This document shows, piece by piece, positions 3,838 through 55,300 of a stretch of DNA of 64,000 nt. The position numbers and the translations under genes are program-made. The notes beneath the pieces are model-generated. The model saw only the letters and a list, made by a program, of their open reading frames with translations. It searched no databases and was not told where the DNA came from. Every line of letters begins with the position of its first letter. Position 1 is the stretch's first letter. Source of the stretch: Citrus sinensis (lineage: Eukaryota; Streptophyta; Magnoliopsida; Sapindales; Rutaceae); the NCBI RefSeq assembly GCF_022201045.2, contig NC_068561.1, forward strand, positions 23,938,501-24,002,500, written 5' to 3'.

Positions 3838-3943
3838 ATGCATCACACAAAAGCAACTTTCAGCAAAATCTTCATCTATCAGCAAATGGATGATCATTAG
3901 AGAGATATACCCTCATGAGCAAATCATAATGATGATCAAATGA
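3838..3943 (+). promoter_or_regulatory. Three upstream ORFs in the AS1 leader
   Basis: Three short reading frames precede the AS1 start. The first runs 3838-3900 (20 codons plus TAG). The second is 3915-3929 (ATG plus 3 codons plus TAA). The third is 3929-3943, starts with two ATGs and ends with a TGA overlapping the AS1 ATG at 3940 as ATGA. A TATA-like CATATATAG near 3792-3800 would place transcription start just ahead of the first one. If the leader is transcribed as drawn, a scanning ribosome meets four ATGs before the real start, which would usually lower translation. Confidence 0.5.
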
Positions 3944-5115
3944 AGGAGAGGCAACGTTGGCAACCAGAAGAAGACGCAATCTTGAAAGCATACGTGAAGC
4001 AATATGGCCCCAAAGAATGGAACCTCATCTCACAACGCATGGGCAAAACCCTCAACCGTGACCCCAAATCTTGCCTCGAGCGCTGGAAAAACTACCTCAA
4101 ACCGGGCATCAAAAAGGGTTCTTTATCCCCAGAGGAGCAATCTCTAGTCATTTCGTTGCAGGCCAAATACGGCAACAAGTGGAAGAAGATCGCGAGTGAA
4201 GTCCCCGGGAGAACGGCCAAGAGATTGGGAAAGTGGTGGGAGGTTTTTAAGGAGAAGCAGTTGAAGCAGCTGCACAAGGAGAAGCAGAGAAGGGAATATT
4301 CCGATCAGCAGCAGGAGGGGAATGTTCCGGTAGTGGGTTTGGGTTCTGGTTCTTGTTCTTCGCCTGAGAAAGTCGCTCAGGGGAGATATGATCATATCTT
4401 AGAGACTTTTGCTGAGAAGTACGTGCAGCCTAAGCTTTTCGCGATGCAAGCATTGAACTTGAATTTGAACCCGGTCCCTGCCAATGCTATTATGCCTAAT
4501 CTACCACTTGGCGGTGCTGATCCTGAACCGGTTCTTTCACTTGGGTCCGGTCCTACGTGGATGAATAATCATAATCATAATCATCATACCAGTGGTTCAT
4601 CTTTGACGTCTTCAACTTCATCTACTACTACAGCTTCTCCTAGTGTGAGTCTGTCGCTTTCTCCATCTGAACCGGGGATTGAACTGGGGGATATGAACCC
4701 TGTGGCCCGGTTCATGCCGGGTCCGCAAGTGGGTACTTTGGTACAGTACTGTAAGGAGCTTGAAGAGGGGAGGCAAAGCTGGGTGCAGCATAAAAAGGAG
4801 GCAACTTGGAGGCTGAGCAGGCTGGAGCAGCAGTTGGAGTCCGAGAAAGCAAGAAAGAGGAGGGAAAAGATGGATGAAACTGAAACAAAGATAAGGGCTT
4901 TGAGAGAAGAGGAATTGTCTCATCTTGGGAGAATTGAGAGTGAGTATAAAGAGCAGCTGAGTGCTTTGCAGAGAGATGCTGAGAGTAAAGAAGCTAAGTT
5001 AATGGAAGCATGGTGTAGCAGGCATGTTAAACTGCTTAAGCTTGTTGAGCAAATTGGAGTTCATCAAAGCAGCACTTCTCATGGATTCTGTGTCGTCCCA
5101 AAGGATATGCACTAA
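3940..5115 (+). CDS. AS1: ASYMMETRIC LEAVES1 / PHANTASTICA-type MYB transcription factor
   Basis: A single uninterrupted exon encodes 391 aa. Two MYB repeats occupy about residues 1-53 and 54-105; the first opens with RQRWQPEEDAIL and the second carries SLSPEEQSLVISLQ and GNKWKKIASEVPGRTAKRLGKWW, the distinctive AS1/PHAN/ROUGH SHEATH2 version. A low-complexity His/Asn- and Ser/Thr-rich linker at about 207-245 is followed by a long charged coiled coil (about 265-375), the part known to bind AS2. In Arabidopsis the AS1-AS2 complex acts in the nucleus to repress class-I KNOX genes such as BP and KNAT2 and to set leaf adaxial identity. The length is slightly above the 357-367 aa of known members because of the linker. 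An intronless coding region is normal for this family. No defects are seen. Three upstream ORFs may limit its translation. Confidence 0.96.
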   Translation: MKERQRWQPEEDAILKAYVKQYGPKEWNLISQRMGKTLNRDPKSCLERWKNYLKPGIKKGSLSPEEQSLVISLQAKYGNKWKKIASEVPGRTAKRLGKWWEVFKEKQLKQLHKEKQRREYSDQQQEGNVPVVGLGSGSCSSPEKVAQGRYDHILETFAEKYVQPKLFAMQALNLNLNPVPANAIMPNLPLGGADPEPVLSLGSGPTWMNNHNHNHHTSGSSLTSSTSSTTTASPSVSLSLSPSEPGIELGDMNPVARFMPGPQVGTLVQYCKELEEGRQSWVQHKKEATWRLSRLEQQLESEKARKRREKMDETETKIRALREEELSHLGRIESEYKEQLSALQRDAESKEAKLMEAWCSRHVKLLKLVEQIGVHQSSTSHGFCVVPKDMH

Positions 5116-7764: not shown

Positions 7765-8682
7765 TTATCTACAACACAAATTGTTTGGATCCTCTAAAAT
7801 ATTGACTCCAAACAATCTGACTACACCGATATTTGGAACTTGGCTCTGCATCTCTTCAAAGCCTGACCCATTTCCATTTTGTTGCAGCTTGCAATCAATG
7901 AACAACTTTGAATTAGACCCAACATTAGATCTCCAAAAGCTCACCGTATCTCCAGCTTTCACGCCTTTCTCCTTAACAAATCTGCTCCACCCCTTTGTCA
8001 ACACATAACTCTGGCTGCTACTCCAATAACAGTACCTCAACCTCCAAACTTTCTGAGTACTATCCTCAAAATTCAGCAACAACCCCTTGGAAGCAATTTC
8101 TGAGCTTAATGCAAAGTGCTTCTCAGCTTGTTGCTTTGGTATCACCATTCTGTTTAACTTCCCCACATCACTTGGTGTAAGCACTTTCTCAAAAAGGAAT
8201 TCAACAGGTGTTTCCTGAAAACAATTTGACCCAAACAGGTCACTAAAACCTGAGCTATTATTATAACAACTAATGCCGACACATGCATAATTTTGTTTGC
8301 TTTGCTCAAGCTCATGCTTATAAGTATGCTTCCTTAGCATATCAACAATCTCAGCCTTAGAATGTGAGCTCAAGAAAATCTTCTCCATGTAATCGTCTTC
8401 GTCATCAGTCTCCAATGAAGTTCTGAAATTTGTGATTGCATTTTGGCCCCGGAACCTCAGTGCTGCAGTGTCATAGACCCTAGCAGCTTCCTCTTCTTCA
8501 ATGAATGTACCAAGCCACACACGTTGATGCTTCTCATATATTTGTGCACCCCATCTGCCATTAGGCTGTGGAACCACCCCCTTATACTTTGAAGAAGGTA
8601 ACTTTTTTGACTCGGCATCGATGCCATTTTCACTGAGATTATGATCATGATCAAGATCAACTGAACTTGAATTGCTTGCCAT
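7765..8682 (-). CDS. RAV-family AP2/ERF-B3 transcription factor
   Basis: A single exon encodes 305 aa with an AP2/ERF domain followed by a B3 domain, the arrangement that defines plant RAV proteins. The AP2 domain spans about residues 32-88 ([20 protein letters not shown], then WLGTF and [14 protein letters not shown]). B3 spans about 162-268 ([20 protein letters not shown], then [20 protein letters not shown]). Near the C terminus RLFGV at 289-293 matches the R/KLFGV repression motif known from RAV repressors, so it is probably a nuclear repressor. Its small size and short N terminus resemble the At1g50680/At1g51120 subgroup more than TEM1/RAV1, but this needs a tree. Minus-strand TATATAT at 8748-8754 lies 66 bases upstream of the ATG and is a good TATA box. 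The gene is intronless, as is usual for RAVs. Confidence 0.93.
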
Positions 8683-24132: not shown

Positions 24133-24137
24133 TCAGG
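24133..24137. other. Target site duplication TCAGG, left copy
   Basis: TCAGG directly abuts the left LTR and is repeated exactly at 36621-36625 right after the right LTR. Five base pairs is the normal size for Ty3/gypsy integrases. Confidence 0.95.
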
Positions 24138-25493
24138 TGTTGTGCAAATTTTAATGTACTCGCAAGCGCACGAATCTATTGTAGTATAGATCTATGGTGA
24201 CGAGTGTCGATCCCACGAGGAGGTGGATTTTAATTGTGTAGAATTAATTTTGTAAATGGGTGATTGGATTTATGGTGGAAATGATTTGGAATATGCTAAA
24301 ACTTAAATTAAAATGGCGAGAATAAATTCTAAAACTGGAATTGAAATGGCGAGAATGAATTGAAGAGAATTCTATTGAAATGACGTACTTGGGTATCTGG
24401 ATCCGTATCAACATGCATCATGGGCTAAATAATCCGTATTAATGCCAATTAAATCATGAGGGGGGAATCCACACCTCATGAACCACGCTCTAATCAATAT
24501 GGTGCTAAGGGCTTATCGTGCCAAATAATAATAACCTTATACTAGAGAGCCGGTGTAACCAAGGCGGTATCTAGACAAGATTAGTATTATTTGTCGACGA
24601 GAAGTCAAAACATCCACAAAAATTAGAGGGGAAGAGAAAGTAAATTTACCAAATTAAGCCCATGACACATGTTGAGACTTCACCTTCAACCCAAGCTTGA
24701 AAGAAAATTAGCCACTCATAATTGAACTAGGGGCAAAATGGGAATTTATTAAAATACGAAGAAAATACAAGATGGAGAGGGAATTACAGAAAATGGATCC
24801 CAAAAATGGATTCAGAGATATCAAATTAGGGGGGGAGGCCCCCTTTTTATAGATACATGGAGTAAATCATGGCCATCGGATTAAAAACAGTTTGGACGCT
24901 CAGGATTGCGCCACGTCATCAGTCAACAGTCCACGGTTTGACCACGCGGATGAACAGTAACACGGTTTGACCCGGATGAACAGTAACGCGGTTTGGTTGA
25001 AAATAATCCTGTGTGATGCATGCACCGTACACGAGATTTTTCGTCCACTGATATGCTGCCACGTCACCATCAACAGTACATAAGAATTTTAGCCCAACAG
25101 GATCGTGACACCTCATCAGTCAAGGCCACATCATCGGTCAATGCCACGTCATCGATCCGTCTATGTGAACAGTGTCGTGAACAGTAACGTAGACAGTACC
25201 GTATACGTGAATAGTACCGTACATGTGAATAGTGCCATTTTTCCTTTTATGCTCCTCCTAAGGTTTTCGACCGTCCTGAGTTCAAAAGTGATGTCCGTTT
25301 TGCCGTCTGATCTCTCATTTATTGTGAAATGACTATAATGCCCCTAAAATACATAAAATACTTAATTAAAATAAAACACATGTAATTAAATCACAAGAAG
25401 GTTAAATATATAAAAGTAAGGGTTGTTAGTAAGACTTAAAATGTAAAATGACGGTTTTCTCCTTTATAAATATGCATTTTCTAACACTCAACA
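24138..25493 (-). repeat. 3' LTR of the Athila-type element
   Basis: The 1356-bp copy begins TGTTGTGCAAA and ends ACACTCAACA, giving the standard TG...CA ends. It matches 35265-36620 at a constant offset of 11,127 with one difference seen, at 25317. Confidence 0.95.
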
Positions 25494-25507
25494 CACCCCC
25501 CAACCAG
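25494..25507 (-). other. Polypurine tract
   Basis: On the minus strand the sequence reads CTGGTTGGGGGGTG directly against the 3' LTR, the usual position for the primer of plus-strand DNA synthesis. The 12 bases CCCCCCAACCAG (plus strand, 25496-25507) recur at 27326-27337. Confidence 0.8.
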
Positions 25508-27325
25508 CTTATTGCTAGTCCCTAGCAAATAAAGCGAAAACAAAATTCAAATTCAAAATAATTTTTTTTTTTTGTTTTAATAGAAACACTCGTATTTATT
25601 CCATCAGATTAATGATAGCAATCAAATAAAAGTATAAGCATTATCTTCAGTCTAAAGCAACATCACACCCACATCAACCATCCACATGAATTAGCCCAGT
25701 AGACTTTGTTTTAGCTACTCTCAAGAATGACATGTCAAACCCCAAAATATCATTGGAAGTAGTGACACTCTCACAAATAAATTAATCCCAATAAAAATAG
25801 TCACTCCAATGAATGGTAATTGAGAGAGAAAATAATAAAGAAATGATATCACATGCTCTCACCAAGATGAAATAAATATGCCCTCAGCTTAGAAATAATA
25901 CGATCTCAAGTCAAATAAAATGTTAGTCAACCCACTTTATTTATCTTTTTTTTTTTTTTTATGCATCACTACATCTTTTTAGCCCATATAACTAGCTTCT
26001 ACTTCGGACTATAGTTCCCTAAAATCAAGAAGGACTTTTATTAGGACGTAACGTAGGCTAGGGACATGGTTAACAAAGAAGGGAAATAAGGAAAACAAAG
26101 TGTATGTTTGAGAAAAATGCAGAGAATTTTTTTTTTTTTTTTTTTTTTGGGAGTTGCAAGGTGGATTTCACCTATTTTTATTCTTTTGAAACAACAACTT
26201 TTGTTTTTGTTTTTTTGTTTTTGTTTTTTTTTTTTTTGGCATAACTTCACTGAACAACATAATTATTTACATTTTCTCAAACATAAATAGGTGATGGAAC
26301 TTATAAGACATCGGGTAATACTCCAAATCGGAGTGGGTCAAGATGATAAGTTGACAAAGAAAATGTTTTTTTTTTTTTTTTTTTTAAAGGCTCAAAAGGG
26401 TTAATTATGGATATTTAATAAAAGGGATGGCTAGAAAGGCTCAAACGGATCAAAGATGGCCTTTCCATCGTCTTTTAGGGCTCTGAATAACCTTCCATAT
26501 CTACTAGTTAGATGGGCCTCCAAATGTAGCAACACACTCTTTTTTCTTTTTTTTTTATTTTACAATTTTTTTTTTTAGGGTTAACTCAAAAGTAATTTAG
26601 AGATCGTGTATAAAATAATAAACTGCTAAGCTGTATAAAGAGTGGGCAAAAGGGTTATTCTCCAAGAAAAATAATAGGCTCAAAAACTCACTTGGTACTT
26701 ATTATGACATGTTCATTCCTTCAAGCAACTCATATATGTCTCCGACATCAACATGTAGAGTAGCAAACATAATGTAACATCACTTAAGACCAAAGATAAT
26801 ACAAATACTAAAATTTAAAATTAATCATGTCACCCAATGTTAAAACAAATCACACAAATTTTTTTTTTTTTTTTTTATTTTTTAAACAACATTCTACCCC
26901 CCAACCTATTCTAAACAAAAAAAAAAAAAAAAAAATGCATGCAGAAATGTGAAAATGATGTAGAAAAATTAATTTAGAAAAGTTACAAAAATGATAGAAA
27001 AGAAAATGATTTTTTAATTATTTTTTTTAAAGAAGATGCGTTTCTAGAGGAACTACACTCCATATTCAGCCATCTTCGACTCAAAAGTTGGAAAATGCAT
27101 TTTTATAGAGGATAAATTAAAAAGAAGAAAAATAAACATAAACACATAATAAAGAAAAAAGAAAATGTCTTAATTTTTTTTTTTTTAAACGATGAAGATG
27201 CGTTTCTAGAGTCACTACACTCCATATTCAGCCATCTTCAACACAAAAAGTTAGCAACAGTTAGTTTCTACAACAAAAAATTAGTAAAAACTTAACCAAA
27301 ATTTCATAATTGTCGACTATTCCCT
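25508..27325 (-). other. Long 3' non-coding region of the retrotransposon
   Basis: No credible ORF is seen. The region is loaded with A runs on the element's strand (plus-strand T runs around 25562-25572, 25947-25960, 26129-26148, 26229-26238, 26367-26385, 26859-26876) and contains the direct repeat at 27032 and 27194. Long 3' regions of this sort are common in Athila elements. Confidence 0.7.
27032..27250 (-). repeat. Direct repeat pair with internal hairpin
   Basis: Two copies of about 55 bp start at 27032 and 27194 (offset 162). Each has GAAGATGCG at one side and CATCTTC at the other, so each copy can form a 7-bp stem. They differ at a few positions. Location is the 3' non-coding part of the retrotransposon. 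Confidence 0.8.
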
Positions 27326-27362
27326 CCCCCCAACCAGAACGAAACATTGTCCTCAATGTTTG
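27326..27362 (-). other. Second polypurine-like tract with adjacent conserved block
   Basis: On the element's strand a block containing GAGGACAATGTTTCGTTCTG runs into GGTTGGGGGG. In my experience this signature lies downstream of the ORFs in Athila relatives. It shares 12 bases with the true polypurine tract and could act as an internal plus-strand primer. Confidence 0.55.
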
Positions 27363-27422
27363 AAATGAAAGAAGTAGAGTTTAGAAGACATCACCTGGGT
27401 GGTGCAACACAGAAGAAAATAT

Positions 27423-28091
27423 TTACAGGCGGAGAGTTAAATCTAATTTGTACTTCTTACTGCTGCTACTGTTACCATCATTATTTGGGCGCTCCAACAC
27501 AAAGGTCCAGGGGTCTGGCTCCGGTTTATACGCTTGTAACAGATCAAGTAGCTCATTAGCAGTGTGAGCACAAATAAAGAGTTTTTTCACATTAGCGGGA
27601 ATGAAATAGTTTTTTATTGCATGGTTAAGAAATGCGATAAAGCCATCATAAAAGTTATTGACATTTAACAAACCGATGGGTTTCTGGTGGATGTGCAGAT
27701 GGGCCCAAGATGCTAGTGTGATAAGTGCCTCTAGTGTTGCAAGATCTCCTGGAAGGAAAATAAAAGCATCAGCATAATTAAGCATTTCAGTTATTCTTTC
27801 TTGCATACCTGAGACGACTAACTCTTCTCCAGTTGATGAGTCAGACGAACTGCCCAATGGTTTTAGGACTCTTGGGATGATGCCTAACACTTGACTTCCT
27901 CTGATAAAAGCTGCTTCTGAGACCATTTTTGATAACCCTCGATTACCTCCTCCATACACCAAGTGTAATTTTCTCGCTGCTATGCTTCGACCAAGATCTA
28001 TGGCTGCCTCAACGAACTCTTTATGTTTGCCATAGGTAAATCCAGAAAGCACACAAATGTTCTTGAATTGTCTATTGGGAGTAGCTGCCAT
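27423..28091 (-). CDS. LONELY GUY-like protein carried by the retrotransposon (ORF4)
   Basis: The 222-aa intronless frame starts at the first ATG of its reading frame. It aligns along its length with plant LOG proteins, cytosolic enzymes that release active cytokinin from cytokinin riboside 5'-monophosphate. Visible landmarks: ICVLSGFTYGKHKEF (12-26), LVYGGGNRGLSKMVSEA (44-60), VLGIIPRVLKP (68-78), R99 at the usual catalytic arginine, ADAFIFLPG (107-115) and QKPIGLLNVNNFYDGF (136-151). The signature PGGxGTxxE, normally carrying the catalytic glutamate, is here PGDLATLEA (114-122): both glycines and the final Glu are replaced. The activity is therefore doubtful; ligand binding, dimer poisoning of host LOGs or a new substrate are alternatives. 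Host LOG genes have introns, so this one probably came from a spliced RNA. The open frame in a young element argues that it is kept. A tail of about 30 residues (191-222) is Ser/Lys-rich and unlike the family. Confidence 0.88.
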   Translation of the reverse strand: MAATPNRQFKNICVLSGFTYGKHKEFVEAAIDLGRSIAARKLHLVYGGGNRGLSKMVSEAAFIRGSQVLGIIPRVLKPLGSSSDSSTGEELVVSGMQERITEMLNYADAFIFLPGDLATLEALITLASWAHLHIHQKPIGLLNVNNFYDGFIAFLNHAIKNYFIPANVKKLFICAHTANELLDLLQAYKPEPDPWTFVLERPNNDGNSSSSKKYKLDLTLRL

Positions 28092-28411
28092 TGTGATACT
28101 TCTCGAAAACAATTTGTGAGTGCTTGACAAAAAAGAAATCACATTTAAGAGTCTCGGTGATAGTGGGTCATGGTTGTGTATGAGGTAATATGTTAGTGTC
28201 AAATAACGCGTAAAGCACGTGGCTCGCAAGTCAAAAAGAAAACAGTAAAAAGGAAAAAGCAAACAGTAATAAAATTATTAAAGACAATAATGCAAACAAT
28301 AAGACAATAGTGAAATAAAATAACAATAAAGTAAAAGGATATTTACAGGTAGTTGCGACTGTGGCTCACATCTTCCTTTGGTTTTACGTCCAGAAACGGC
28401 TTGAACGCCCT
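28092..28411 (-). promoter_or_regulatory. ORF3-ORF4 spacer with splice-acceptor-like sequence
   Basis: On the element's strand a long T-rich stretch ends in TTTTTGACTTGCGAG at about 28223-28237, which looks like a polypyrimidine tract plus AG acceptor, 132 bases upstream of the ORF4 ATG. No ATG occurs in the ORF4 frame between it and 28091. The spacer also holds the right-hand copy of the 11-bp repeat that recurs at the ORF4 stop. Confidence 0.4.
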
Positions 28412-28969
28412 CTATGGGTCGAGGATAGGCTTCCTATCCAGTTTTCTTATAAACTGGCAAACAGGGTCGTTTATAGTCAGATTCCCGAGACTATATCGTG
28501 CATGCTCTTTCTGGAATAATGGCCATAACTGGAGAATCGCTCCTTGCACATATCCACTGGGATGCGTTTCAAGAGACAAAAGGATATCATCCAATGACTC
28601 CTTATTCAAGCCATCCCTAATGAATTGAATCTTATCTTCCCTGTTATCAGACATCATTCCTAAAGAACATGGGTTTTTATTGCAACTCATTCTGGCACAC
28701 TTATGACAAGCAACAGAAATTCTTCGAGCTCGTCGTTTTCTTGCATAATTTCCTTTACCACAACCAGGCATGTATGCAATAAATTTTGGAGGTAACTCAC
28801 CTGCCGATCGTACTTTAGCCTCGATTAACCAACGGATGTCAGCAGGTATGTTATTCCTCATGAATAATCGCATGCGTTCGGACCGAGCTTTATAGATCGT
28901 AAGGAGGGCATTCTGAGGAAGTGAAGGGAATCGCTTGTGAAGCTTTGCTAGAATCTCGTTTCTGTCCAT
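28412..28969 (-). CDS. Cys-rich nucleic-acid-binding-like protein carried by the retrotransposon (ORF3)
   Basis: The 185-aa frame opens with ATG. Residues about 35-125 have the order seen in the short cysteine-rich nucleic-acid-binding proteins of plant flexiviruses (Pfam Viral_NABP, carla-, viti- and allexivirus type): a helical leader, a glycine-containing turn, the basic run YARKRRARR (75-83), a CX2CX4CX4C finger (C88, C91, C96, C101) and a following segment ending IQFIRDGL (114-121). Those viral proteins bind RNA/DNA, and several suppress RNA silencing or affect host transcription. The C-terminal 60 residues are unrecognised. The similarity was judged by eye. If correct, the element took a gene from an RNA virus or shares an ancestor with its source; a role against silencing of the element is a reasonable inference. 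After the TAG at 28412 the frame stays open for 17 more codons before TAA. Confidence 0.65.
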   Translation of the reverse strand: MDRNEILAKLHKRFPSLPQNALLTIYKARSERMRLFMRNNIPADIRWLIEAKVRSAGELPPKFIAYMPGCGKGNYARKRRARRISVACHKCARMSCNKNPCSLGMMSDNREDKIQFIRDGLNKESLDDILLSLETHPSGYVQGAILQLWPLFQKEHARYSLGNLTINDPVCQFIRKLDRKPILDP

Positions 28970-29064
28970 ACCTTCGCCTCAGAATATCAGTTATTATGGG
29001 AAACTGAAGTAACCGACTTGATTGTCACGGAGTACCGTTATCCGCCACTTCACCGGGGTAACAA

Positions 29065-29110
29065 ACTAAAGCACACAAATAGAAAAACAAATTAAAACAC
29101 ACAAAGAAAA
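29065..29110 (-). promoter_or_regulatory. Candidate splice acceptor upstream of ORF3
   Basis: On the element's strand a T-rich tract ends in TTTGTGTGCTTTAG, with the AG at 29067-29066, 96 bases upstream of the ORF3 ATG. It is a good plant acceptor by eye and pairs in theory with the donor beside the primer-binding site. Confidence 0.4.
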
Positions 29111-29344
29111 TTAAAATCGTCCTCTTATTGAATTTACCTCAAGCTCCAACTGGATGTCGTAAACACTTCTCTCAATGTCTCTGAGTTGGTGTTCTAAACC
29201 CTCAACATAGGCTACTAACTCTGGTGGTTGTAGAGCCCAAATGCGTTGTGTTTTACAAAATTGAATCTGCCTTTTGAGATGAGTTTTGACACGTTGAAGT
29301 GGTTTAAGAATGTTCAGGAGGAACGGTCTAAGTATGAGACTCAT
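29111..29344 (-). CDS. Small basic/coiled ORF2 of the retrotransposon
   Basis: From the first ATG (29344) the frame encodes 77 aa; it stays open 14 codons further upstream without an ATG. The start MSLILRPFLLNILKPL is hydrophobic and amphipathic, followed by a Lys/Arg-rich segment (RVKTHLKRQIQ) and a helix likely to coil (ELVAYVEGLEHQLRDIERSV). It sits just after pol, where Athila elements place the start of the env-like region. No family was recognised. It may be an exon of a longer spliced product, or a chance frame. Confidence 0.4.
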   Translation of the reverse strand: MSLILRPFLLNILKPLQRVKTHLKRQIQFCKTQRIWALQPPELVAYVEGLEHQLRDIERSVYDIQLELEVNSIRGRF

Positions 29345-29469
29345 GATTAAAAATGATAAGAGAAAACTTAATGGTAAAATAAACACACTTATGCAAAAAC
29401 AATTTCAATTAGCAAAAGAATAATATAAAGAAAGAAAGAAAAATCAAATCAACGAAAAGAAAAAAAAAA

Positions 29470-32400
29470 TCAATTCAAATTTGGTGGGTCACTCAAATTT
29501 ATTTCGGTGTCTTCTTCATGTGGTTGGTACTCTAGATATGGCTTTAATCTTTGACCATTAACTTTAAACGTGACACCATTCTTTGGGTCTTTAATTTCAA
29601 TTGCCCCATGTGGAAAAACAGTATGAACAATAAAGGGACCAGACCAACGAGAACGTAACTTACCTGGGAATAGGTGCAAGCGAGAATTGAATAAAAGCAC
29701 TTTCTGACCTGGAGTGAACGATTTTCTCATAATTTGCTTATCATGGAAGACTTTCATTCGTTGCTTGTAAATCTTGGCATTTTCGTACGCGTCATTGCGA
29801 ATTTCTTCAAGTTCTGCCAGCTGTAATCTTCTTTCTGAGCTGGCTTGCTGCATGTCAAAATTGAATTTCTTGATGGCCCAATATGCACGATGCTCGAGCT
29901 CCACAGGTAGGTGGCAAGCTTTTCCATATACTAGCCTGTAGGGTGACATCCCAATCGGGGTCTTGAAAGTCGTTCTATATGCCCATAAGGCATCATCAAG
30001 TCTTAATGACCAATCTTTTCTGTCCGGCCTCACCGTTTTTTCTAATATGTGCTTTATTTCTCGATTGGAGATCTCAACTTGGCCACTGGTTTGCGGATGA
30101 TACGGGGTCGCCACTTTATGTGTGATTGAATACTTTGTCAAAAGAGCTTTGAATGCTTTGTTACAAAAGTGGGCACCACCATCACTGATTATTGCTCGAG
30201 GGAATCCAAAGCGCGAGACAATGTTGCTTTTCAAAAATCCTATCACCACCTTGTGATCATTGGTTCTACATGGAATTGCTTCTACCCATTTTGAGACGTA
30301 GTCAACACCAACCAATATGTATTGATGGCCAAAAGAAGGGGGAAAGGGTCCCATGAAGTCGATACCCCATACGTCAAAAATCTCAACCACTAAAATTGGA
30401 TTTAGTGGCATCATGTTCCTTCGTGTAATGCTCCCCATTCGTTGACACCTATCACATGAAGAACAAAAAGTGTAAGCGTCTCGAAATAGTGTTGGCCAAT
30501 AGAAACCACATTGTAAAACTTTAGTCGCTGTTTTCTTAGCACTGAAATGGCCTCCACAAGCTTGTTCATGGCAGAATGAAAGGATATTCTGAATTTCACT
30601 TTCTGGGACACATCGTCTAACAATTTGGTCTGCACAATACTTGAACAAATATGGGTCATCCCAAAAGAAATTATTTATCTCTGCAAAGAATTTAGCCTTA
30701 TCTTGCTTGGTCCAATGCTCTGGAAGTTTACCTGTAACAAGATAATTAACTATATCAGCATACCAAGGTAATACTTCCACACTCATTAATTGTTCATCTG
30801 GAAATGACTCATTTAATGGTAATTGTTCTATAATTGTGTCAAAATGGAGACGAGAGAGGTGGTCCGCCACAACATTTTCTGTCCCTTTTTTATCTTTGAA
30901 TTCCAAGTCAAATTCCTGCAAAAGTAACACCCAACGAATTAGTCTGGCTTTTGCATCTTTCTTTGTGAGAAGATATTTAAGAGCAGCATGATCTGTGAAT
31001 ATAATTATTTTACAACCAATGAGATATGATCGAAATTTTTCCAATGCAAACACTACTGCTAGCATTTCTTTTTCAGTAGTTGAATAGTTCAACTGTGCAT
31101 CATTCAATGTCATACTAGCATAGTAAATAACATGGGGAATTCGATCAACTCTTTGTCCTAATACTGCTCCTACTGCATAATCAGATGCATCGCACATGAG
31201 CTCAAATGGTAATTTCCAGTTCGGGGGCTGAATGATGGGTGATGATGTCAACAACCGTTTTAATTTTTCAAACGCCATAAGACATGAATCATTAAAGATA
31301 AAAGGTACATCCTTAGCAAGTAAATTGCATAAGGGTCTAGAAACTTTGCTAAAATCTTTAATGAAACGTCTATAGAAACCAGCATGCCCAAGGAAAGATC
31401 TTACTTCTCTGACTGTTTTGGGTGGAGGAAGATTAGAAATGAGATCCACCTTGGCTTTGTCAACCTCAATACCTTTGCTCGAAATGATGTGACCGAGAAC
31501 AATACCTTGTTTTACCATAAAATGGCATTTCTCCCAATTTAAGACCAAGTTCTTGTCGATACATCTCTGCAGAACTAGTGTTAGATGATGTAAACATTGA
31601 TCAAACGAGTCACCAAAGACAGAAAAATCATCCATAAAGACTTCAAGGAATCGTTCAACCATATCAGAAAAAATGCTCAACATGCATCGTTGAAATGTAG
31701 CAGGTGCATTACATAATCCAAATGGCATTCTTCTATATGCAAATGTGCCAAAAGGGCAAGTGAAAGTAGTTTTCTCTTGATCTTTTGGTGCTATGGGAAT
31801 CTGATTATATCCTGAGTAGCCATCTAGAAAGCAATAAAATTCATGTCCTGCTAATCTATCAAGCATTTGATCAATAAATGGTAAAGGAAAATGGTCTTTA
31901 CGTGTGACAGAATTCAACTTTCTATAATCAATGCATACACGCCATCCTGTAGTCACTCTAGTGGGTATCAATTCATTATCAGCATTGGTAACTACTGTGA
32001 CTCCTGACTTTTTGGGGACAACTTGTACAGGACTAACCCATGAACTATCAGAAATGGGGTAAATGATACCAGCATCTAATAGCTTAAGGACTTCTGTTCT
32101 AACAACTTCTTTCATATTAGGATTTAACCGACGTTGCATTTCCCTAGTAGTTTTAGCATTTTCATCAAGGTGAATGTAATGCATACAGTCTACTGGGTTT
32201 ATACCTTTGATGTCTGCTATGGTCCATCCTAATGCCCCTTTATGCTCTTTTAAAACATCTAACAACTTACCTTTTTGTTCGTCATTGAGGGATGATGAGA
32301 TGATTACCGGCAGAGTGCTTTCTTCTCCCAAAAACGCATATTCCAAAGTGTTGGGCAATGGTTTGAGCTCGAGTTTCGGTGGTGATTCTGATGATGGAAT

Positions 32401-34851
32401 GAGTTGCTTCTCTGATGGTGCTAGTTGCTCAACTCTTGATTTCCATTTATTAGTGTCCATGGATGGTGTTGAGTCAAGCAGGGCGTTGACCTCATCAACT
32501 GATCTGTCAATATCAAAATCCAAACCAAAGTGAGTTAAACATGTTTGTAAAGGATCATCACTAAGGTTTGAAAGAAAAGTATTATCAACTATTGTTTCAA
32601 TTAAATCCACATCAACAATTCCATCATCTACACTGTAAGGTTGTTTGGCAATGTTGAAAATGTTTAATTCCATAGTCATGTTGCCGAAGGACAACTGCAT
32701 ATTTCCAGTCCTGCATTGAATGTGAGCATCCGCAGTTGCCAAGAAAGGTCGGCCTAGAATAATGGGGATGTGCTTCTTTGAATCCTGTATTGGTTGAGTG
32801 TCAATTACAATGAAATCAACAGGAAAATAAAACTTGTCTACCTGGATAAGCACGTCCTCCACAATACCACGAGGTATTTTCGTGGACCGATCTGCAAGCT
32901 GTAACACCACTGGAGTTGGGTGTAATTCTCCAAGTCCAAGTTTCACAAACACTGAATAAGGTAACAGATTTACACTAGCTCCTAAATCCAACAAAGCATT
33001 CTCAATTGTGTGGTTCCCTATGCTACATGAGATAGTGGGGGAGCCTGGGTCTTTGCATTTTAGAGGAATTTTATGTTGGAGGATAGAACTAACGTTTTCT
33101 GTTAAAAATGCTTTCTTTTGAACATGCATGTTTCTCTTTTTAGTACACAAATCTTTAAGAAACTTGGCATAAGATGGAACTTGCTTTATAGCATCAAGTA
33201 AAGGGATGTTAACACTTACCTGTTTGAAGATTTCAAGAATCTCACCTGTGGATTTTCCCTTTTTTCCTTTAGCTAACCTCTGAGGAAATGGAGCCTTGGG
33301 AACATATTCTTGTGGGTTGGCTTCTTCTCTCTCCTCCGGTGGTGAGTCCTCAACGTTCACAGGTACAATTTGATTTTCCTTTGTCACCGGCATCTCCACT
33401 TTGTTGTCGACTTCCTTTCCTTTTCGCAAGGTCATTACTGCTTTGACTTCTCCATGCTGCTGTGGTGAACTGGTACTTGCTTCATGCACTCCTTTAGGGT
33501 TAGGCACTGGTTGACTTGGAAACTTACCTTTCTCAACGGTCATTGCCAAGGTCTGAACTGAAGAAGCAAGTTGTCCCACCATCTTCTCGAGGCTTGAAAC
33601 AGATTGAGCTTGTGAGTTGAAGCCTGCTCTCAACTCATTTCGTAGTCCATCAATGGTGCGATTCTGTTGCTCAATCGTGGAGTGAGTAAGATTCTTGAGA
33701 TTCTGGAATGAATCCTCCCATGGTCTGGGCTGAGAGTAATTCTGGTTCTGATTGTATGGTCTAAATGGTGGCTGAGAGGCTTGAGGATTTTGTGGAATTG
33801 GTGGAGCTGGAGCTGTTGGTCCATTCTGTTGGAATCCTTGAGACCATGAAAAATTGGGGTGGTCTCTCCATCCAGGGTTATATGTGTTGGAGTATGGGTT
33901 GTAATTTGATGGCTTTCTCATTACACCTATGGCATTGGCTTGATCTGAGTATGAGTCATGGTCATGTGGTTCTGTTGATTTAGCAGTCGATAACGATGCT
34001 ATTTGTCGAGCAAGACCTTCAACCATCTCCTTGACTTCTTTGATTCCCGAAGTTGACTCGCCAATTTGAACCTCATTTACTCCCTTAATTCGTCTAGTAT
34101 TCCTGAGTGATCGACTCCGTTGTTGGGAATTATCCGCTTGTCGCTGGAAGAATTCCCAAATCTCTGATGCACTTTTTGACATTAGCTCTCCTCCACTTGT
34201 TGCCATTAGCCATTCTTGCACATTCGGCAATAATCCCTCCAAAAAGTATTGGCATTGGTGCCATTTCTCGTACCCATGATGTGGACACTTCAAGAGTAGC
34301 CCATTGAATCGCTCCCATGTTTCGAAAAATTGCTCGTCATCTTTCTGGGTAAACTCCGAGATTTCCCTGCGAATAGCATTGGTTTTATGCACTGGGAAAT
34401 ATTTATTTAAAAATTTTGTAACCATTTGTTCCCATGATGCAATGCTATTAGCAGGCAATGTATTAAGCCATGAACGAGCTCTGTCTTTTAAAGAAAATGG
34501 GAATAGTCTAAGTTTAACATCATCGTCTGAAAAATTTTCATATTTAAAAGTTTGACAAATGGCATGAAAATCATTCAGATGATTATATGGATCCTCATTT
34601 TCTAGGCCATAAAATGTAGGGAGACAATTTAACACACTAGGTTTTAATTCAAAACTCCTAGCAGCTACATTTGGGTATCTTATGCATGACGTGCTCAAAT
34701 TAGCTAAGGGACTAAAATAGTCCTTAAATGGCCTCTCCTGTGGTGCTTGTAAATCCATTTTATTTTTAACGTGTTTGTGTGTGCGAAGTGTTTTTTCTAA
34801 TTCAAGGTCTATAGGTTCAAGATTAGGTAATAATGACCTACGACCATGCAT
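29470..34851 (-). CDS. Gag-Pol polyprotein of the Athila-type retrotransposon
   Basis: One open frame of 1793 aa from the first ATG (start [13 protein letters not shown]). Gag with a retrotrans_gag core lies at about residues 75-220 ([19 protein letters not shown]); no CCHC knuckle was found, as is usual in Athila. Protease is near residue 620 ([12 protein letters not shown], with DLG in place of D-S/T-G, common in this clade). Reverse transcriptase is at about 885-1115 ([11 protein letters not shown]; catalytic FMDD near 1070). RNase H follows ([27 protein letters not shown]). Integrase has an HHCC finger ([11 protein letters not shown]) and catalytic D in WGIDFMGPF (about 1494), D in IISDGGAHF (about 1554) and E in TSGQVEISN (about 1590). 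All enzymes share one frame with no stop or frameshift. An unbroken polyprotein of this length is good evidence of recent activity. Confidence 0.96.
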
Positions 34852-34946
34852 GCAAAATAAATAAAATAAAAATAAAGATGCAAACAAAACAAAAAAATAA
34901 AGATGGGAACAAAACAAATAAAAATAAAGAAGAGGGAGAAATTACG

Positions 34947-35124
34947 ATACTAACCTTATTGCGCTATTACAACTTTTCTATAAAAATACACAAAAATAAA
35001 TACGTGAAAGAAATTAACTAAAAATTAAATTAATAAGATAAACAAAAAAAATTACAAAGAAAAATAAATGGAAAATTAAATTACAAAATTTTAAAGAAGA
35101 GAAAAAGGAAAGAAATACTAACCT
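34947..35124 (-). promoter_or_regulatory. Leader with two repeated donor-like motifs
   Basis: The 5' leader between the primer-binding site and gag is A/T-rich. AGGTTAGTAT, a plausible 5' splice site, occurs twice on the element's strand (34947-34956 and 35115-35124). Confidence 0.35.
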
Positions 35125-35233
35125 TTAAATGTAGATTCACTTTTTTTTTCTTTTTTTTTTAATAATTAAAAAAAAATACAAGAAAACAAATAAAAGAAGT
35201 TATTCACAAAAATTAATTCTATGAATTAAAATT

Positions 35234-35240
35234 ACTTACC
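35234..35240 (-). promoter_or_regulatory. Strong candidate splice donor beside the primer-binding site
   Basis: On the element's strand GGGGAG|GTAAGTAATT follows the primer-binding site directly. GTAAGT is the consensus plant donor. The position parallels the major splice donor of retroviruses, which joins a common leader to downstream genes. Confidence 0.5.
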
Positions 35241-35258
35241 TCCCCGGCAACGGCGCCA
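35241..35258 (-). other. Primer-binding site
   Basis: TGGCGCCGTTGCCGGGGA on the minus strand starts six bases inside the 5' LTR. This sequence is the usual Athila-clade primer site, reported as matching tRNA-Asp. Confidence 0.9.
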
Positions 35259-35970
35259 AAAACTTGTTGTGCAAATTTTAATGTACTCGCAAGCGCACGA
35301 ATCTATTGTAGTATAGATCTATGGTGACGAGTGTCGATCCCACGAGGAGGTGGATTTTAATTGTGTAGAATTAATTTTGTAAATGGGTGATTGGATTTAT
35401 GGTGGAAATGATTTGGAATATGCTAAAACTTAAATTAAAATGGCGAGAATAAATTCTAAAACTGGAATTGAAATGGCGAGAATGAATTGAAGAGAATTCT
35501 ATTGAAATGACGTACTTGGGTATCTGGATCCGTATCAACATGCATCATGGGCTAAATAATCCGTATTAATGCCAATTAAATCATGAGGGGGGAATCCACA
35601 CCTCATGAACCACGCTCTAATCAATATGGTGCTAAGGGCTTATCGTGCCAAATAATAATAACCTTATACTAGAGAGCCGGTGTAACCAAGGCGGTATCTA
35701 GACAAGATTAGTATTATTTGTCGACGAGAAGTCAAAACATCCACAAAAATTAGAGGGGAAGAGAAAGTAAATTTACCAAATTAAGCCCATGACACATGTT
35801 GAGACTTCACCTTCAACCCAAGCTTGAAAGAAAATTAGCCACTCATAATTGAACTAGGGGCAAAATGGGAATTTATTAAAATACGAAGAAAATACAAGAT
35901 GGAGAGGGAATTACAGAAAATGGATCCCAAAAATGGATTCAGAGATATCAAATTAGGGGGGGAGGCCCCC

Positions 35971-35978
35971 TTTTTATA
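35971..35978 (-). promoter_or_regulatory. TATA box of the retrotransposon promoter
   Basis: TATAAAAAGG on the minus strand, about 640 bases from the LTR's upstream edge, predicts the U3/R boundary near 35945. Confidence 0.6.
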
Positions 35979-36036
35979 GATACATGGAGTAAATCATGGC
36001 CATCGGATTAAAAACAGTTTGGACGCTCAGGATTGC

Positions 36037-36278
36037 GCCACGTCATCAGTCAACAGTCCACGGTTTGACCACGCGGATGAACAGTAACACGGTTTGACCC
36101 GGATGAACAGTAACGCGGTTTGGTTGAAAATAATCCTGTGTGATGCATGCACCGTACACGAGATTTTTCGTCCACTGATATGCTGCCACGTCACCATCAA
36201 CAGTACATAAGAATTTTAGCCCAACAGGATCGTGACACCTCATCAGTCAAGGCCACATCATCGGTCAATGCCACGTCA
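36037..36278 (-). promoter_or_regulatory. Three TGACGTGGC bZIP-type sites in the LTR
   Basis: Identical nonamers lie at 36037-36045, 36185-36193 and 36270-36278, with the same set in the other LTR (24910-24918, 25058-25066, 25143-25151). They combine the TGACG core bound by TGA factors with the ACGT G/C-box core bound by plant bZIPs, and are upstream of the TATA box. Confidence 0.6.
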
Positions 36279-36620
36279 TCGATCCGTCTATGTGAACAGT
36301 GTCGTGAACAGTAACGTAGACAGTACCGTATACGTGAATAGTACCGTACATGTGAATAGTGCCATTTTTCCTTTTATGCTCCTCCTAAGGTTTTCGACCG
36401 TCCTGAGTTCAAAAGTGATGTCCGTTTTGCCGTCTGATCTCTCCTTTATTGTGAAATGACTATAATGCCCCTAAAATACATAAAATACTTAATTAAAATA
36501 AAACACATGTAATTAAATCACAAGAAGGTTAAATATATAAAAGTAAGGGTTGTTAGTAAGACTTAAAATGTAAAATGACGGTTTTCTCCTTTATAAATAT
36601 GCATTTTCTAACACTCAACA

Positions 36621-36625
36621 TCAGG
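36621..36625. other. Target site duplication TCAGG, right copy
   Basis: Exact repeat of the five bases at 24133-24137. Confidence 0.95.
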
Positions 36626-37887: not shown

Positions 37888-38784
37888 ATGTTTTCTTCAA
37901 ACCCTAGCACTAGCTTCAACCCAAATGCAAACATCTTCTCTTCTAATAATTACCTTCGTTGTCCTCCTCTATTCGCTGGCTATGAAAACAACAACGTTTT
38001 GCTTAATCCACTCACAGGTTGGATCTTACCGGCAGCCAATCATCAGACTTTGACAAACATGGCATTTACTGGCAATGCGAGTGCAGTGGTGAATAGAGAA
38101 CATTTTGATCATCCTTCAAGTTTTATACGAAACGAGAAGCCGGTGCCAGTGAAGAGAGATCGGCACAGCAAAATTTGTACAGCTCAGGGTTTTAGAGATC
38201 GGAGAGTGAGACTGTCTATTGAAATCGCCCGCAAGTTCTTTGATCTACAGGACATGCTAGGGTTTGATAAAGCAAGCCAAACCCTTGAATGGCTGTTCAA
38301 CAAGTCAAGAAAGGCTATTAAGGAACTGATAGAGCTGAAGAGGCCCTGCAATGGTACTAGTAAGCAATTAATGGAGAAGCTTGCAAAAAAGTCAAGAGAT
38401 CAGGCAAGAGCAAGAGCAAGGCAAAGGACTCGAGAAAAAATGTTTAAAAAATTTGCTGACACAATTCCTCAAATCTCGACCCAAATCAAAGCTTGCCAAG
38501 AATCAAGTTCTTATGTTGTTTCTCATGATCAAGTCCAAGAACCTTGCTCTTCCACACTAGCCTGTCAAACGCAAGACAATCAAGCTCCGACAGATAGAAA
38601 TCAGAACCCATCTTCAAATTTTGCTCATGATCAGCAAAATCTTGAAATTTCAAAGGATACAATTAGTTGCAATACAAGCAACTATAACTTCAATTTACCT
38701 CAAAACTGGGACATCGTTAGTGCAATGCCTCATCAGTACACAGTCTGTCGAGCAATTACCAAACATGAATCTCTCAACTGGTAA
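37888..38784 (+). CDS. TCP transcription factor, CYC/TB1 class
   Basis: The frame encodes 298 aa. The TCP basic helix-loop-helix domain is at about residues 89-147 ([20 protein letters not shown], then [20 protein letters not shown]). The Arg-rich R domain is at about 168-185 ([18 protein letters not shown]); only the CYC/TB1 clade and a few others have it. Members act in the nucleus: TB1/BRC1 types arrest axillary buds, CYC types set floral asymmetry, and in Citrus two of this class control thorn growth. Which branch this is needs a tree. The last codon pair TGG TAA lies in a possible splice site (CTG|GTAATT, acceptor TTTGCAG at 38885-38891); splicing there would end the protein one residue earlier, so the product is nearly the same. 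CYC-type genes commonly have a late intron. Cys in KICTAQG replaces the more usual Tyr or His. Confidence 0.92.
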
Positions 38785-52361: not shown

Positions 52362-55300
52362 ATGGACTCGCGACGCAGCTCACGCGCCCTAATAGATCCA
52401 AAGGTCCGTCAAGTCGGCTTCTTCACCAACGCTCCCCTGCCACCCGACCGCACTCAGTCGGACCCACCCGACCCGATCCACTCAACACCGTTAGCCGACG
52501 CCTCTTCCCCTGGAAACTTCCTGTCTCCTGTCATGATCCCGCCGCCACGTCACCCCTCCTCCTCCCTCCTCCCACGTCTCCCTCACTCCCCTTCCGACGC
52601 CTTCCCTCCGCCCTCTCCCACCACCACCACCACCACCACGTCTCTCGGTGACTTCTCTGATGACGTTACTGCGGCCTCGTCCCCTCCCTCTGCTGCTGCT
52701 GCTGCTGCGAGGGTCAGGGGTAGAGGCAGTTCGGTAAAACAGCAGGGTGCTGCATCCTCGTTTCCAGGTGGAGGATTTGAGGTTCCGCCATCTGTGAAAG
52801 CTCCCAGTAGTGTCCCCGCAAGCGGCCTCACTACAGTGTCGGTCGTCAAATTGCCGCCTGGAATTTCGGGTAAGTAGTCTATAAACGCCAGCTTTTATTG
52901 CAATAACCCCAAAATAATTTACTTTGTAACTATTTTTTTTATCAGTTGCAATTACTTTGCTTCAATTTGTTTGATTAAAACCAATTTCAGTTAAAAAAAT
53001 AGAGAGAATTAAATAAAGGTTATGCTATTGCAGAGAATGCTGGTGGGTCTGTGTCAGTTGAAGTGCAGAGTGATCGAGCTTTGAATTCAAAGCCCTTGAA
53101 AGAGAAGACCTCCAAAGCTGAAAGACGAGCCATTCAGGAGGCACAACGAGCTGCGAAGGCAGCTGCTAAAGGTGTGCATATTATAGTTTGTTAATGCCAT
53201 AAATAGAACATGTCTATATTCTGTGACTTCTGATAATTGAATAATTGATCATTTTATCTAGTTGTGAATTTATTGAGTTTGAATGAGTAGAAAAGTTTAA
53301 TAAGTAATATGATCATACCTTTCACAGCTGTGTCTGTGTAACCATTGGAAACACCTATGTATTTGCTGTTTACGGCTGCCTGTTGAGTAAGATTTGCACT
53401 TTAGTGGTATAACTTAATATCTTTAACCCCTTGTCAACATCTACTCGTTTGAATTGTCTTTGTCTCAGGTAGGTTATAGTATCTAATTATGTTGTATTAT
53501 ATTGTAATAATGATAATCCTATAATGTTTAGCGGAAGGAATTAAGACACCTGCTGCCACGGCATTGGCAAATGCAAAACCAACTAAATCCACCAGGCCGT
53601 CTCCACAGAGGAATGATAGTCCTGTGGTTGTTGCTGCTTCCGAGAAGAAGGGAGGTGATCGTTCTGTAGAAAAAGATAGAAAGAAAGATGTCCCCCATCC
53701 GCGCATGCAGTATGATGATAAGAGTCGTGTGCAAAAGTTGAAAAAACGTTCTGTGGTAAAACCAACTGAAGCTAGGAACAGAGTTGAATTGTTTAGGCAT
53801 TTGCCCCAATATGAACATGGAACTCAGCTTCCTGTTCTTCAATCCAAGTTTTTCCAACTTGACACATTGCATCCTGCCGTTTACAAGGTATTGATATGAA
53901 GAAATGTGTGCTAGGTTGTTACGGATATGTTATCAAGTTCACTAAGACTCTTGGCTAATTATGTCCTTGTTTTGTTGTCAGGTTGGATTACAATATTTAT
54001 CTGGAGATATATGTGGTGGCAATGCTCGTTGTATTGCAATGCTTCAAGCATTCCAAGAGGCCATCAGAGATTACTCAACTCCACCTGCAAAAACACTTAG
54101 TAGAGACTTAACAACAAAAATAAGTAGTTATGTTTCATTTCTCATTGACTGCCGTCCGCTTTCAGTTAGCATGGGAAATGCAATAAGGTTTCTAAAGAGT
54201 GGAATTGCCAAGATACCTATTTCTCTGTCTGAGTCAGAAGCAAAGGCGACTCTTCATTCAGACATTGAGCGTTTCATAAATGAGAAGATCATACTTGCAG
54301 ACAGAGTGATAGTAAAGCATGCTGTTACAAAGATCAGAGATGGTGATGTTCTTCTTACATACGGGTCATCCAGTGCAGTTGAGATGATACTACAGCATGC
54401 CCATGAGCTAGGCAAACAGTTTCGCGTTGTGATAGTAGACTCGCGTCCAAAGCATGAAGGGAAACTATTACTCCGAAGGTTGGTGAGGAAGGGTCTCAGC
54501 TGTACATACACTCATATAAATGCTATTTCTTATATCATACATGAAGTTACTCGAGTTTTTCTGGGTGCTTCATCAGTTTTGTCAAATGGGACTGTTTGCT
54601 CAAGAGTTGGAACCGCATGTGTTGCAATGGTTGCTTATGGATTCCATATACCAGTGTTAGTATGTTGTGAAGCATATAAGTTTCATGAAAGAGTGCAGCT
54701 TGATTCAATTTGCTCTAATGAGCTTGGTATGCATTCCAAAAATATGGGAACACCCAATACCTCTTTCCGGACACATGCCCTATGGTTGCTTATTCAGGTG
54801 TCTTGCTTGCAGGTGATCCTGATTCCATTTCAAAGGTTCCTGGGCGAGAGGACATCAATCACTTGGATGGCTGGGACAAGAGTGAAAATCTGCAGCTTCT
54901 GAATCTGATGTTAGTTCTTATATATTTTAGTATTTTCCACTCCAGTTGCCACTTCTCCCCACTAACTGATCAATAATATTTCTATTTTGGATTGATATTG
55001 ACAGTTACGATGCTACACCCTCAGATTATGTGTCGTTGATAATCACAGATTATGGCATGGTAAGTCATACTCTGGTTTCTGTGAGAAGTGCATGTTGCTT
55101 GTATTTTCATTATATTATTATAATTGTTATTCCGTAGTCGAGTTTTATACATGTTGAATTTCTTTATCTTGAGATTCATGTGGTTTGTTAATTTCTTCAC
55201 CTTCTGTTGATGCATTGCTTACAAGGGTTTGCCCAGCCTAGAACCTCACATTTTGCATCTAAGCTTGGTTGTGCAGAGCCCGTGCCCTCTGAGAGTGGAA

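Follow-up and report, generated by a model that had tools for sequence, protein, structure and literature searches.

Additional open reading frames (ORFs) of retroelements have been treated in general terms in PMC7264820 and PMC6317226, and in the survey of plant retrotransposons presented in the available part of the latter, only 21.4% of the extra ORFs matched a recognised domain. The absence of a chromodomain and of an additional RNase H is given there as the feature that sets Athila apart from chromoviruses and Tat (PMC6317226), and Athila and Bagy2, as described in the accessible text of PMC7264820, combine a single gag-pol frame with extra sense ORFs located between pol and the 3' LTR, a layout shared by the element described here. 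The closest precedent is found in PMC9289625, the available portion of which reports a YgdH/LONELY GUY (LOG) domain in consensus sequences of Citrus sinensis and C. clementina and, when the filter is off, also of Populus trichocarpa, a finding that is called "in line with" Steinbauerova et al. 2011. Given this publication of the YgdH (LOG) domain in Citrus Gypsy elements, the statement of the earlier note on this DNA that no described retrotransposon family includes LOG has to be withdrawn; the published Citrus and Populus elements probably belong to the same family as the one analysed here or to a sister family. As far as the accessible text of PMC9289625 goes, the report consists of the domain match alone, whereas here we also address the catalytic state of the protein, selection, the companion ORFs and module exchange. 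The same source describes Ty3/gypsy elements of orchids with an RNA demethylase ORF, which is, as in the present case, a captured host-type enzyme; the orchid protein keeps its cofactor residues and is active in vitro, whereas the element LOG has lost a catalytic residue.

Two papers on Citrus retrotransposons (PMC7145672 and PMC6466647) count many Athila elements, and word searches of their available text found no mention of lysine decarboxylase in either, of LOG or an additional ORF in PMC7145672, or of an ORF in PMC6466647. Among the titles and abstract beginnings searched, PMC9289625 was the sole paper on LOG-bearing retroelements, and the literature within reach of the search, that is, outside subscription papers and supplements, contained no account of the motif change, of selection on the ORF, of the viral likeness of ORF3 or of module exchange.

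The window, that is, the whole 64,000-nucleotide stretch of C. sinensis DNA that was analysed, contains on its minus strand a complete LTR retrotransposon (Table 1) whose LTRs, TSD, PBS, PPT and PR-RT-RH-INT order are all those of an Athila-type Ty3/gypsy element. The Pfam matches of gag-pol comprise Retrotrans_gag, Asp protease, RVT_1, RT_RNaseH, H2C2 and rve, with neither a chromodomain nor an additional RNase H among them (as judged by the Pfam scan), and the Athila ORF-1 domain (PF03078) was absent from the Pfam matches of the three element proteins scanned. The PBS is of a type that we take to be tRNA-Asp. On the element strand, gag-pol is followed by the 77-aa ORF, ORF3, the LOG ORF (ORF4) and then about 1.9 kb up to the 3' LTR, in which no frame of at least 80 codons is open on that strand. 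Two 75-nt direct repeats, 83% alike, are located within this non-coding stretch (27012-27248). The difference from Athila and Bagy2 is in the nature of the extra ORFs, which here are LOG-like and zinc-finger NABP-like. Because the LTR pair differs at just 1 of 1356 sites, the insertion appears to be very recent; plant genomes accumulate substitutions at a rate of ~1e-8 per site per year, which would put the age of the element at some tens of thousands of years. The earlier note had described an intronless, 222-codon LOG-like frame lying in gag-pol orientation between gag-pol and the 3' LTR of a young, complete Athila-type element, and this description is borne out by the LTR, TSD, PBS and PPT evidence along with the PF03641 match given below.

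Table 1. Features of the LOG-bearing Athila-type element, in window coordinates
Feature	Position	Strand	Evidence
TSD TCAGG, left copy	24133..24137	.	sequence
Complete Athila-type (Ty3/gypsy) LTR retrotransposon, 12,483 bp	24138..36620	-	LTRs, TSD, PBS, PPT, pol domains
3' LTR, 1356 bp	24138..25493	-	pair with 5' LTR
Polypurine-type tract GGTTGGGGGGTG, G-rich, directly before 3' LTR	25494..25505	-	sequence
Accessory ORF4, LOG-family protein, 222 aa, altered motif PGDLATLEA at residues 114-122	27423..28091	-	translation, Pfam, alignments
Accessory ORF3, 185 aa: basic stretch, then C-x2-C-x4-C-x4-C (residues 88-101)	28412..28969	-	Pfam below cut-offs, alignment
Small accessory ORF, 77 aa	29111..29344	-	50-55% aa identity in 7 copies of other families
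gag-pol, single open frame, 1793 aa from first ATG; open from 34941	29470..34851	-	Pfam and ORF list
PBS region TTTTTGGCGCCGTTGCCGGGGA..., directly after 5' LTR, tRNA-type	35235..35264	-	sequence
5' LTR, 1356 bp	35265..36620	-	1 mismatch against 3' LTR
TSD TCAGG, right copy	36621..36625	.	sequence

The frame that encodes the LOG protein is followed by a stop, and the opposite (plus) strand of the same interval is full of stops. The LOG frame stays open for 61 codons further upstream of its ATG; we take the 222 codons as the gene because similarity between families begins at the ATG. The product matches PF03641 (E 1.1e-27, 97.2 bits against a cut-off of 27) and SLOG cluster4, PF18306 (36.8 bits against 26.3), and its best relative of solved structure is Arabidopsis 2a33 (E 2.8e-44, homology over ~185 residues); by both PF03641 and 2a33, the homology extends across the whole domain of the LOG phosphoribohydrolases. 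In the available part of PMC4979012, Arabidopsis 2a33 and 1ydh are named LOG3 and LOG8, respectively, and the Corynebacterium glutamicum LOG (CgLOG) is Cg2612. The element protein has in common with these enzymes the VYGGG loop, Arg99, Thr119, Glu121 and Trp129, but differs from them in the reading PGDLATLEA in place of PGGxGTxxE, in changes of His97, Lys100, Glu122 and Glu125, in being intronless and retroelement-borne, and in a C-terminal tail that runs ~30 residues past the LOG alignment. Its identity to Arabidopsis LOG3 is only ~43-47% over the part compared. Two structure models were poor (mean pLDDT 43.8 and 42.1).

The searched genome (299.7 Mb in 11 contigs) yielded 150 LOG copies with 97-100% protein identity, all without stops, these being the best 150 of 2111 candidates and as such biased towards intact copies. 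A DNA pattern for the altered motif occurs at 738 genomic sites, compared with 0 for the reversed pattern used as the control. The possibility that the ORF is a lone passenger or a chimera was ruled out on these counts. A sample drawn blind to LOG was taken from the 1092 LTR-PBS junction sites (at most 3 mismatches) as the first 20 listed, all of which are on contig C1 and exact to the window junction, so that the sample is biased to close relatives. Both LOG and ORF3 are present in 19 of these 20 elements, and the remaining one (L043) matches none of the four probes (LOG, ORF3, RT and the 77-aa ORF). The sampled LOG frames include 14 with no stop or indel (two of which, L034 and L035, are near-identical neighbours), 3 with frame shifts, 1 with one stop and 1 with an in-frame deletion that runs through the motif. 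A strict rule scores ORF3 as intact in 12 elements; it aligns over 184 of its 185 residues without a stop in 2, is interrupted by stops in 5 and is missing in 1.

Other copies are more distant from the window element, with protein identities of 73-77% for LOG and 59-67% for ORF3. By protein likeness, we named three families: A, to which the window element belongs; B (L014, L017-L020, L049-L051, L055 and L060), several copies of which are near-identical and hence non-independent; and C (L011, L013, L052 and L053), with L065 placed in none. The same ORF order is kept in all three, and the similarity of the 77-aa ORF in 7 copies of other families covers nearly its whole length; ORF3 was undetected in L011, partial in L019 and split in L060. 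The intergenic stretch between ORF3 and LOG has a DNA identity of 0.79 between A and B and 0.75 between A and C, and it matches the coding DNA in between-family similarity, so that DNA identity alone proves nothing.

Between families, the dN/dS of the window LOG (Nei-Gojobori with Jukes-Cantor) is 0.183-0.250 against the 15 LOG copies with less than 80% aa identity, at a dS of 0.63-0.84, and the comparison of N with S differences between the window and family B gives a Fisher p of 2e-15. The corresponding dN/dS values are 0.225-0.280 for ORF3 (12 copies of other families) and 0.30-0.40 for the 77-aa ORF (7 copies). Four LOG copies at 80-89% aa identity gave 0.31-0.47 and four such ORF3 copies 0.50-0.63; judged by likeness, these would be decayed members of family A, for which a dN/dS higher than that between families is expected after insertion. 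Within family A, we compared variants found in at least two copies (shared) with singletons by the ratio of replacement to silent changes relative to the neutral expectation. This ratio is 0.34 for shared variants and 0.66 for singletons in LOG (35 copies, Fisher p 0.016), and 0.42 and 1.36, respectively, in ORF3 (34 copies, Fisher p 0.0005), in sets that consist of one full-length match each, with repeated loci and near-identical neighbours dropped (L003, L023, L024, L030 and L035), and that include copies chosen for their LOG or ORF3 match. In the LOG-blind sample together with the window (L035 dropped), the difference is significant for ORF3 (0.29 vs 1.02, 19 copies, p 0.008) and not for LOG (0.42 vs 0.59, 16 copies, p 0.47); the LOG shared variants of this sample by themselves depart from neutrality (binomial p 0.005), and the LOG singletons are somewhat constrained too (0.59-0.66). 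The pol pieces show ratios of 0.13 vs 0.51 (RT) and 0.13 vs 0.53 (integrase), and the 77-aa ORF, on few changes, 0.57 vs 0.77. LOG and ORF3 are hence constrained, though less strongly than pol. The same ORF at the same place in several elements, with dN/dS below 1 among them, had been named in the earlier note as support for a maintained gene; both are observed, in many elements of three families and in all 15 between-family comparisons, and, with the family-wide presence, uphold the view that LOG is a maintained part of the coding set of the element.

The active site was examined against CgLOG, the residue numbers of which are used here and happen to be identical in the element protein. According to the available text of PMC4979012, Arg99 and Glu122 are the proposed catalytic residues, the AMP contacts include Met96, Lys100, Gly116, Gly118, Thr119 and Glu121, and the prenyl site is lined by Met96, His97, Lys100, Glu125 and Trp129; alanine substitutions at the AMP-binding and catalytic residues, with the exception of S19A, leave almost no activity. 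We scored 54 element LOGs (60 rows minus 3 locus repeats and 3 frame-broken copies with a short match). Glu122 is absent in all 54 (51 Ala, 1 Pro, 1 Val and 1 Ser), Lys100 is replaced by Ile in all 54, and in all 53 readable copies Gly116 is replaced by Asp and Gly118 by Ala or Val; Gln97 and Thr125 (H97Q and E125T) are invariant across ten aligned proteins. Thus, the PGGxGTxxE motif with the catalytic Glu and the nucleotide-binding Gly is missing, whereas the catalytic Arg99 is kept (53/54), along with Thr119 (53/53), Glu121 and Trp129 (54/54 each) and residues 47-49 of the GGG loop (50, 51 and 53 of 54). At the position of Glu122, the P. aeruginosa LOG chain 5zbj carries Glu and 5zbk carries Ala, the latter being presumably an engineered mutant. 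Given that the motif residues are lost while the domain is kept, the hormone reaction has probably disappeared from the element protein; nucleotide binding is uncertain because the Asp in the phosphate loop should weaken binding as well. The changed motif may also give a new activity rather than none.

The earlier note suggested a LOG in use that possibly alters the state of the host cell; under this reading, the element LOG would make active cytokinin, and the raised hormone level would favour cell division and hence transposition. Clear LOG homology, the selection on the ORF and the persistence of Arg99, Thr119, Glu121, Trp129 and, mostly, the GGG loop would all be expected of an active enzyme, but the residues changed throughout the copies (Glu122, Lys100, Gly116 and Gly118) are ones that CgLOG needs (PMC4979012, available text), and on the states in the 54 copies we rejected this reading as improbable. 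A catalytically dead subunit could still affect the hormone as a dominant-negative decoy, with mixed dimers lowering or redirecting the cytokinin output of the host LOG. The active-site pocket of LOG is formed by dimerisation, from two subunits (PMC4979012, same portion), and the loss of the motif combined with conservation of the rest of the domain is compatible with such a role, but the limited identity to Arabidopsis LOG3 makes mixed dimers uncertain, and we consider a decoy unlikely.

Alternatively, the LOG ORF could be a captured passenger that is functionless for the element and survives through the youth of its copies. The window copy is indeed very recent, and the capture of host genes by plant transposable elements is well described (PMC7264820, in the part available), but a dN/dS of ~0.2 between families at a dS of ~0.7, the retention of LOG together with its neighbours in three families and the constraint on shared variants leave this explanation with hardly any credibility. 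Recent capture from the LOGs of this host was rejected as well: among the matches listed (150 of 1533 candidates scored), and over a query of 88 residues, the identity of element copies to Arabidopsis LOG3 does not exceed 47%, compared with 92% for a host exon.

The host LOG loci are split by introns, one of which falls at about PG|G of the motif (exon limits from tblastn), whereas the element LOG is uninterrupted, which points to the capture of a spliced transcript. The motif PGG[YF]GTLEE is kept in 3 of the 4 host loci (L045, L047 and L048). The fourth, L046 (G000:C7:1363000-1371000), located near L045, has a broken frame and Lys in place of the motif Glu, and is probably a decaying duplicate. 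A protein tree of 12 rows unites the element LOGs (100/100) on a long branch, 1.4 changes per site in length, but does not unite the plant LOGs; the element group and its branch fit one capture followed by fast change and then constraint, so that, as far as this small tree goes, we infer a single event.

The reading that we favour, and consider likely, is a single capture of LOG followed by the loss of its active site and the conservation of its fold for a new role in the element. A plant LOG (cytokinin nucleoside 5'-monophosphate phosphoribohydrolase) mRNA would have been captured once, long ago, by an element of the Athila lineage and would have joined an accessory block (the 77-aa ORF, the 185-aa zinc-finger ORF and the LOG ORF) between pol and the 3' LTR. 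The active site would have been rewritten before the families split (K100I, G116D, G118A, E122A, H97Q and E125T), with Arg99, the VYGGG loop, Thr119 and Glu121 retained, and purifying selection would have subsequently held the protein in the replicating lineages. ORF4 would now be a LOG-fold accessory protein that lacks the hormone reaction and has a dimeric binding or scaffold role for the element, probably acting together with the zinc-finger ORF on the host (RNA protection, silencing or cell state). The sequences show that the ORF is present in many copies, in a conserved order, under selection, without introns and with its motif lost; the loss of catalysis and the direction of the new role are inferred. 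With a well-studied parent enzyme, hundreds of copies, three families, clear purifying selection and a definite active-site change, the role of the element LOG is directly testable. Should ORF4 still bind cytokinin nucleotides or the host LOG, a mobile element would be linked to a plant growth hormone. In genome annotation, copies of ORF4 may be called LONELY GUY genes, yet they are not host genes nor, probably, cytokinin enzymes.

The companion ORF3 resembles, weakly but consistently, two families of viral proteins. At E <= 1, all 9 aligned members match Carla_C4 (PF01623), the best of them with E 3.9e-4 and 20.8 bits (cut-off 20.9), and 6 of the 9 match Viral_NABP (PF05515), at best with E 5.8e-4 and 20.3 bits (cut-off 23); these best scores come from a family B copy, the window ORF3 itself giving E 0.0096 and 0.025, respectively. 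None of 10 shuffles of one member (5 global and 5 within 12-residue blocks) matched either family. As in the cysteine-rich nucleic-acid-binding proteins of carlaviruses, allexiviruses and mandariviruses, a basic stretch (residues ~77-83) precedes a cysteine cluster, from which cysteines have been lost in 2 of the 9 members (L037 and L057); in contrast to those proteins, ORF3 is a retroelement gene and scores below both curated cut-offs, and we presume that its cysteine spacing differs from the viral one. We regard this viral likeness as a lead and do not assign ORF3 to either family. An ORF3 profile search against PDB gave a single match (E 0.48), a scan of viral contigs with both alignments (two short patterns each) found no relative, and a PF05515 search gave no match in this genome or in the control genomes and so carries no weight; nor did titles and abstract beginnings disclose a carlavirus link to such retroelement ORFs. 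Should ORF3 prove to be a silencing suppressor, the element would seem to carry its own countermeasure to host defence. Just past the ORF3 stop, a stretch at 28340-28411 (minus strand) is strongly conserved across families A, B and C, and in L037 the ORF3 frame continues through the matching stretch; this stretch may function as an RNA element or encode an extension of ORF3 that is reached by stop readthrough.

The accessory ORFs and the backbone differ in their divergence at fourfold sites. In one family B copy (L073, L075 and L049), the only B backbone for which these data were obtained, 83 of 120 fourfold sites differ from the window in gag, protease, RNase H and integrase-N, compared with 38 of 126 in the three accessory ORFs (Fisher p 1e-9); integrase-C (L075) is in between, with 31 of 66 (p 0.004 and 0.03 against the two extremes). 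At the protein level, family B and the window are 75% identical in LOG and 65-73% in integrase. Recombination of the accessory block between backbones would fit this synonymous-site step, with regional differences in synonymous constraint as an alternative cause. We tentatively raise the possibility, on balance a doubtful one, that the three ORFs constitute a transferable host-interaction cassette that, like phage cassettes, would be swapped between Athila backbones by recombination and would combine a virus-type zinc-finger silencing suppressor with a LOG-derived pseudoenzyme that would either target host cytokinin metabolism or itself sense nucleotides.

In the same family B copy, the gag-pol frame (L073, G000:C5:10733300-10736500) is open and devoid of the RT domain, with the deletion junction present at 3 genomic places; a general absence of RT from family B was rejected, given that this junction (at most 3 mismatches) occurs at those 3 places only. 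Upstream of a family C copy, where pol would be expected, L074 (G000:C6:8653700-8656900) contains several frames on the plus strand that by eye resemble another retroelement or a caulimovirus-like insertion; one of these frames has a CCHC-like zinc knuckle. Elsewhere in the window, the long frames at 3940-5115 and 7765-8682, on one side of the element, and at 37888-38784 and 53961-54902, on the other, look like host genes, which we take to encode a MYB-domain protein, a RAV-type AP2/B3 factor, a TCP- or RWP-like factor and an eIF2B-like subunit, respectively.
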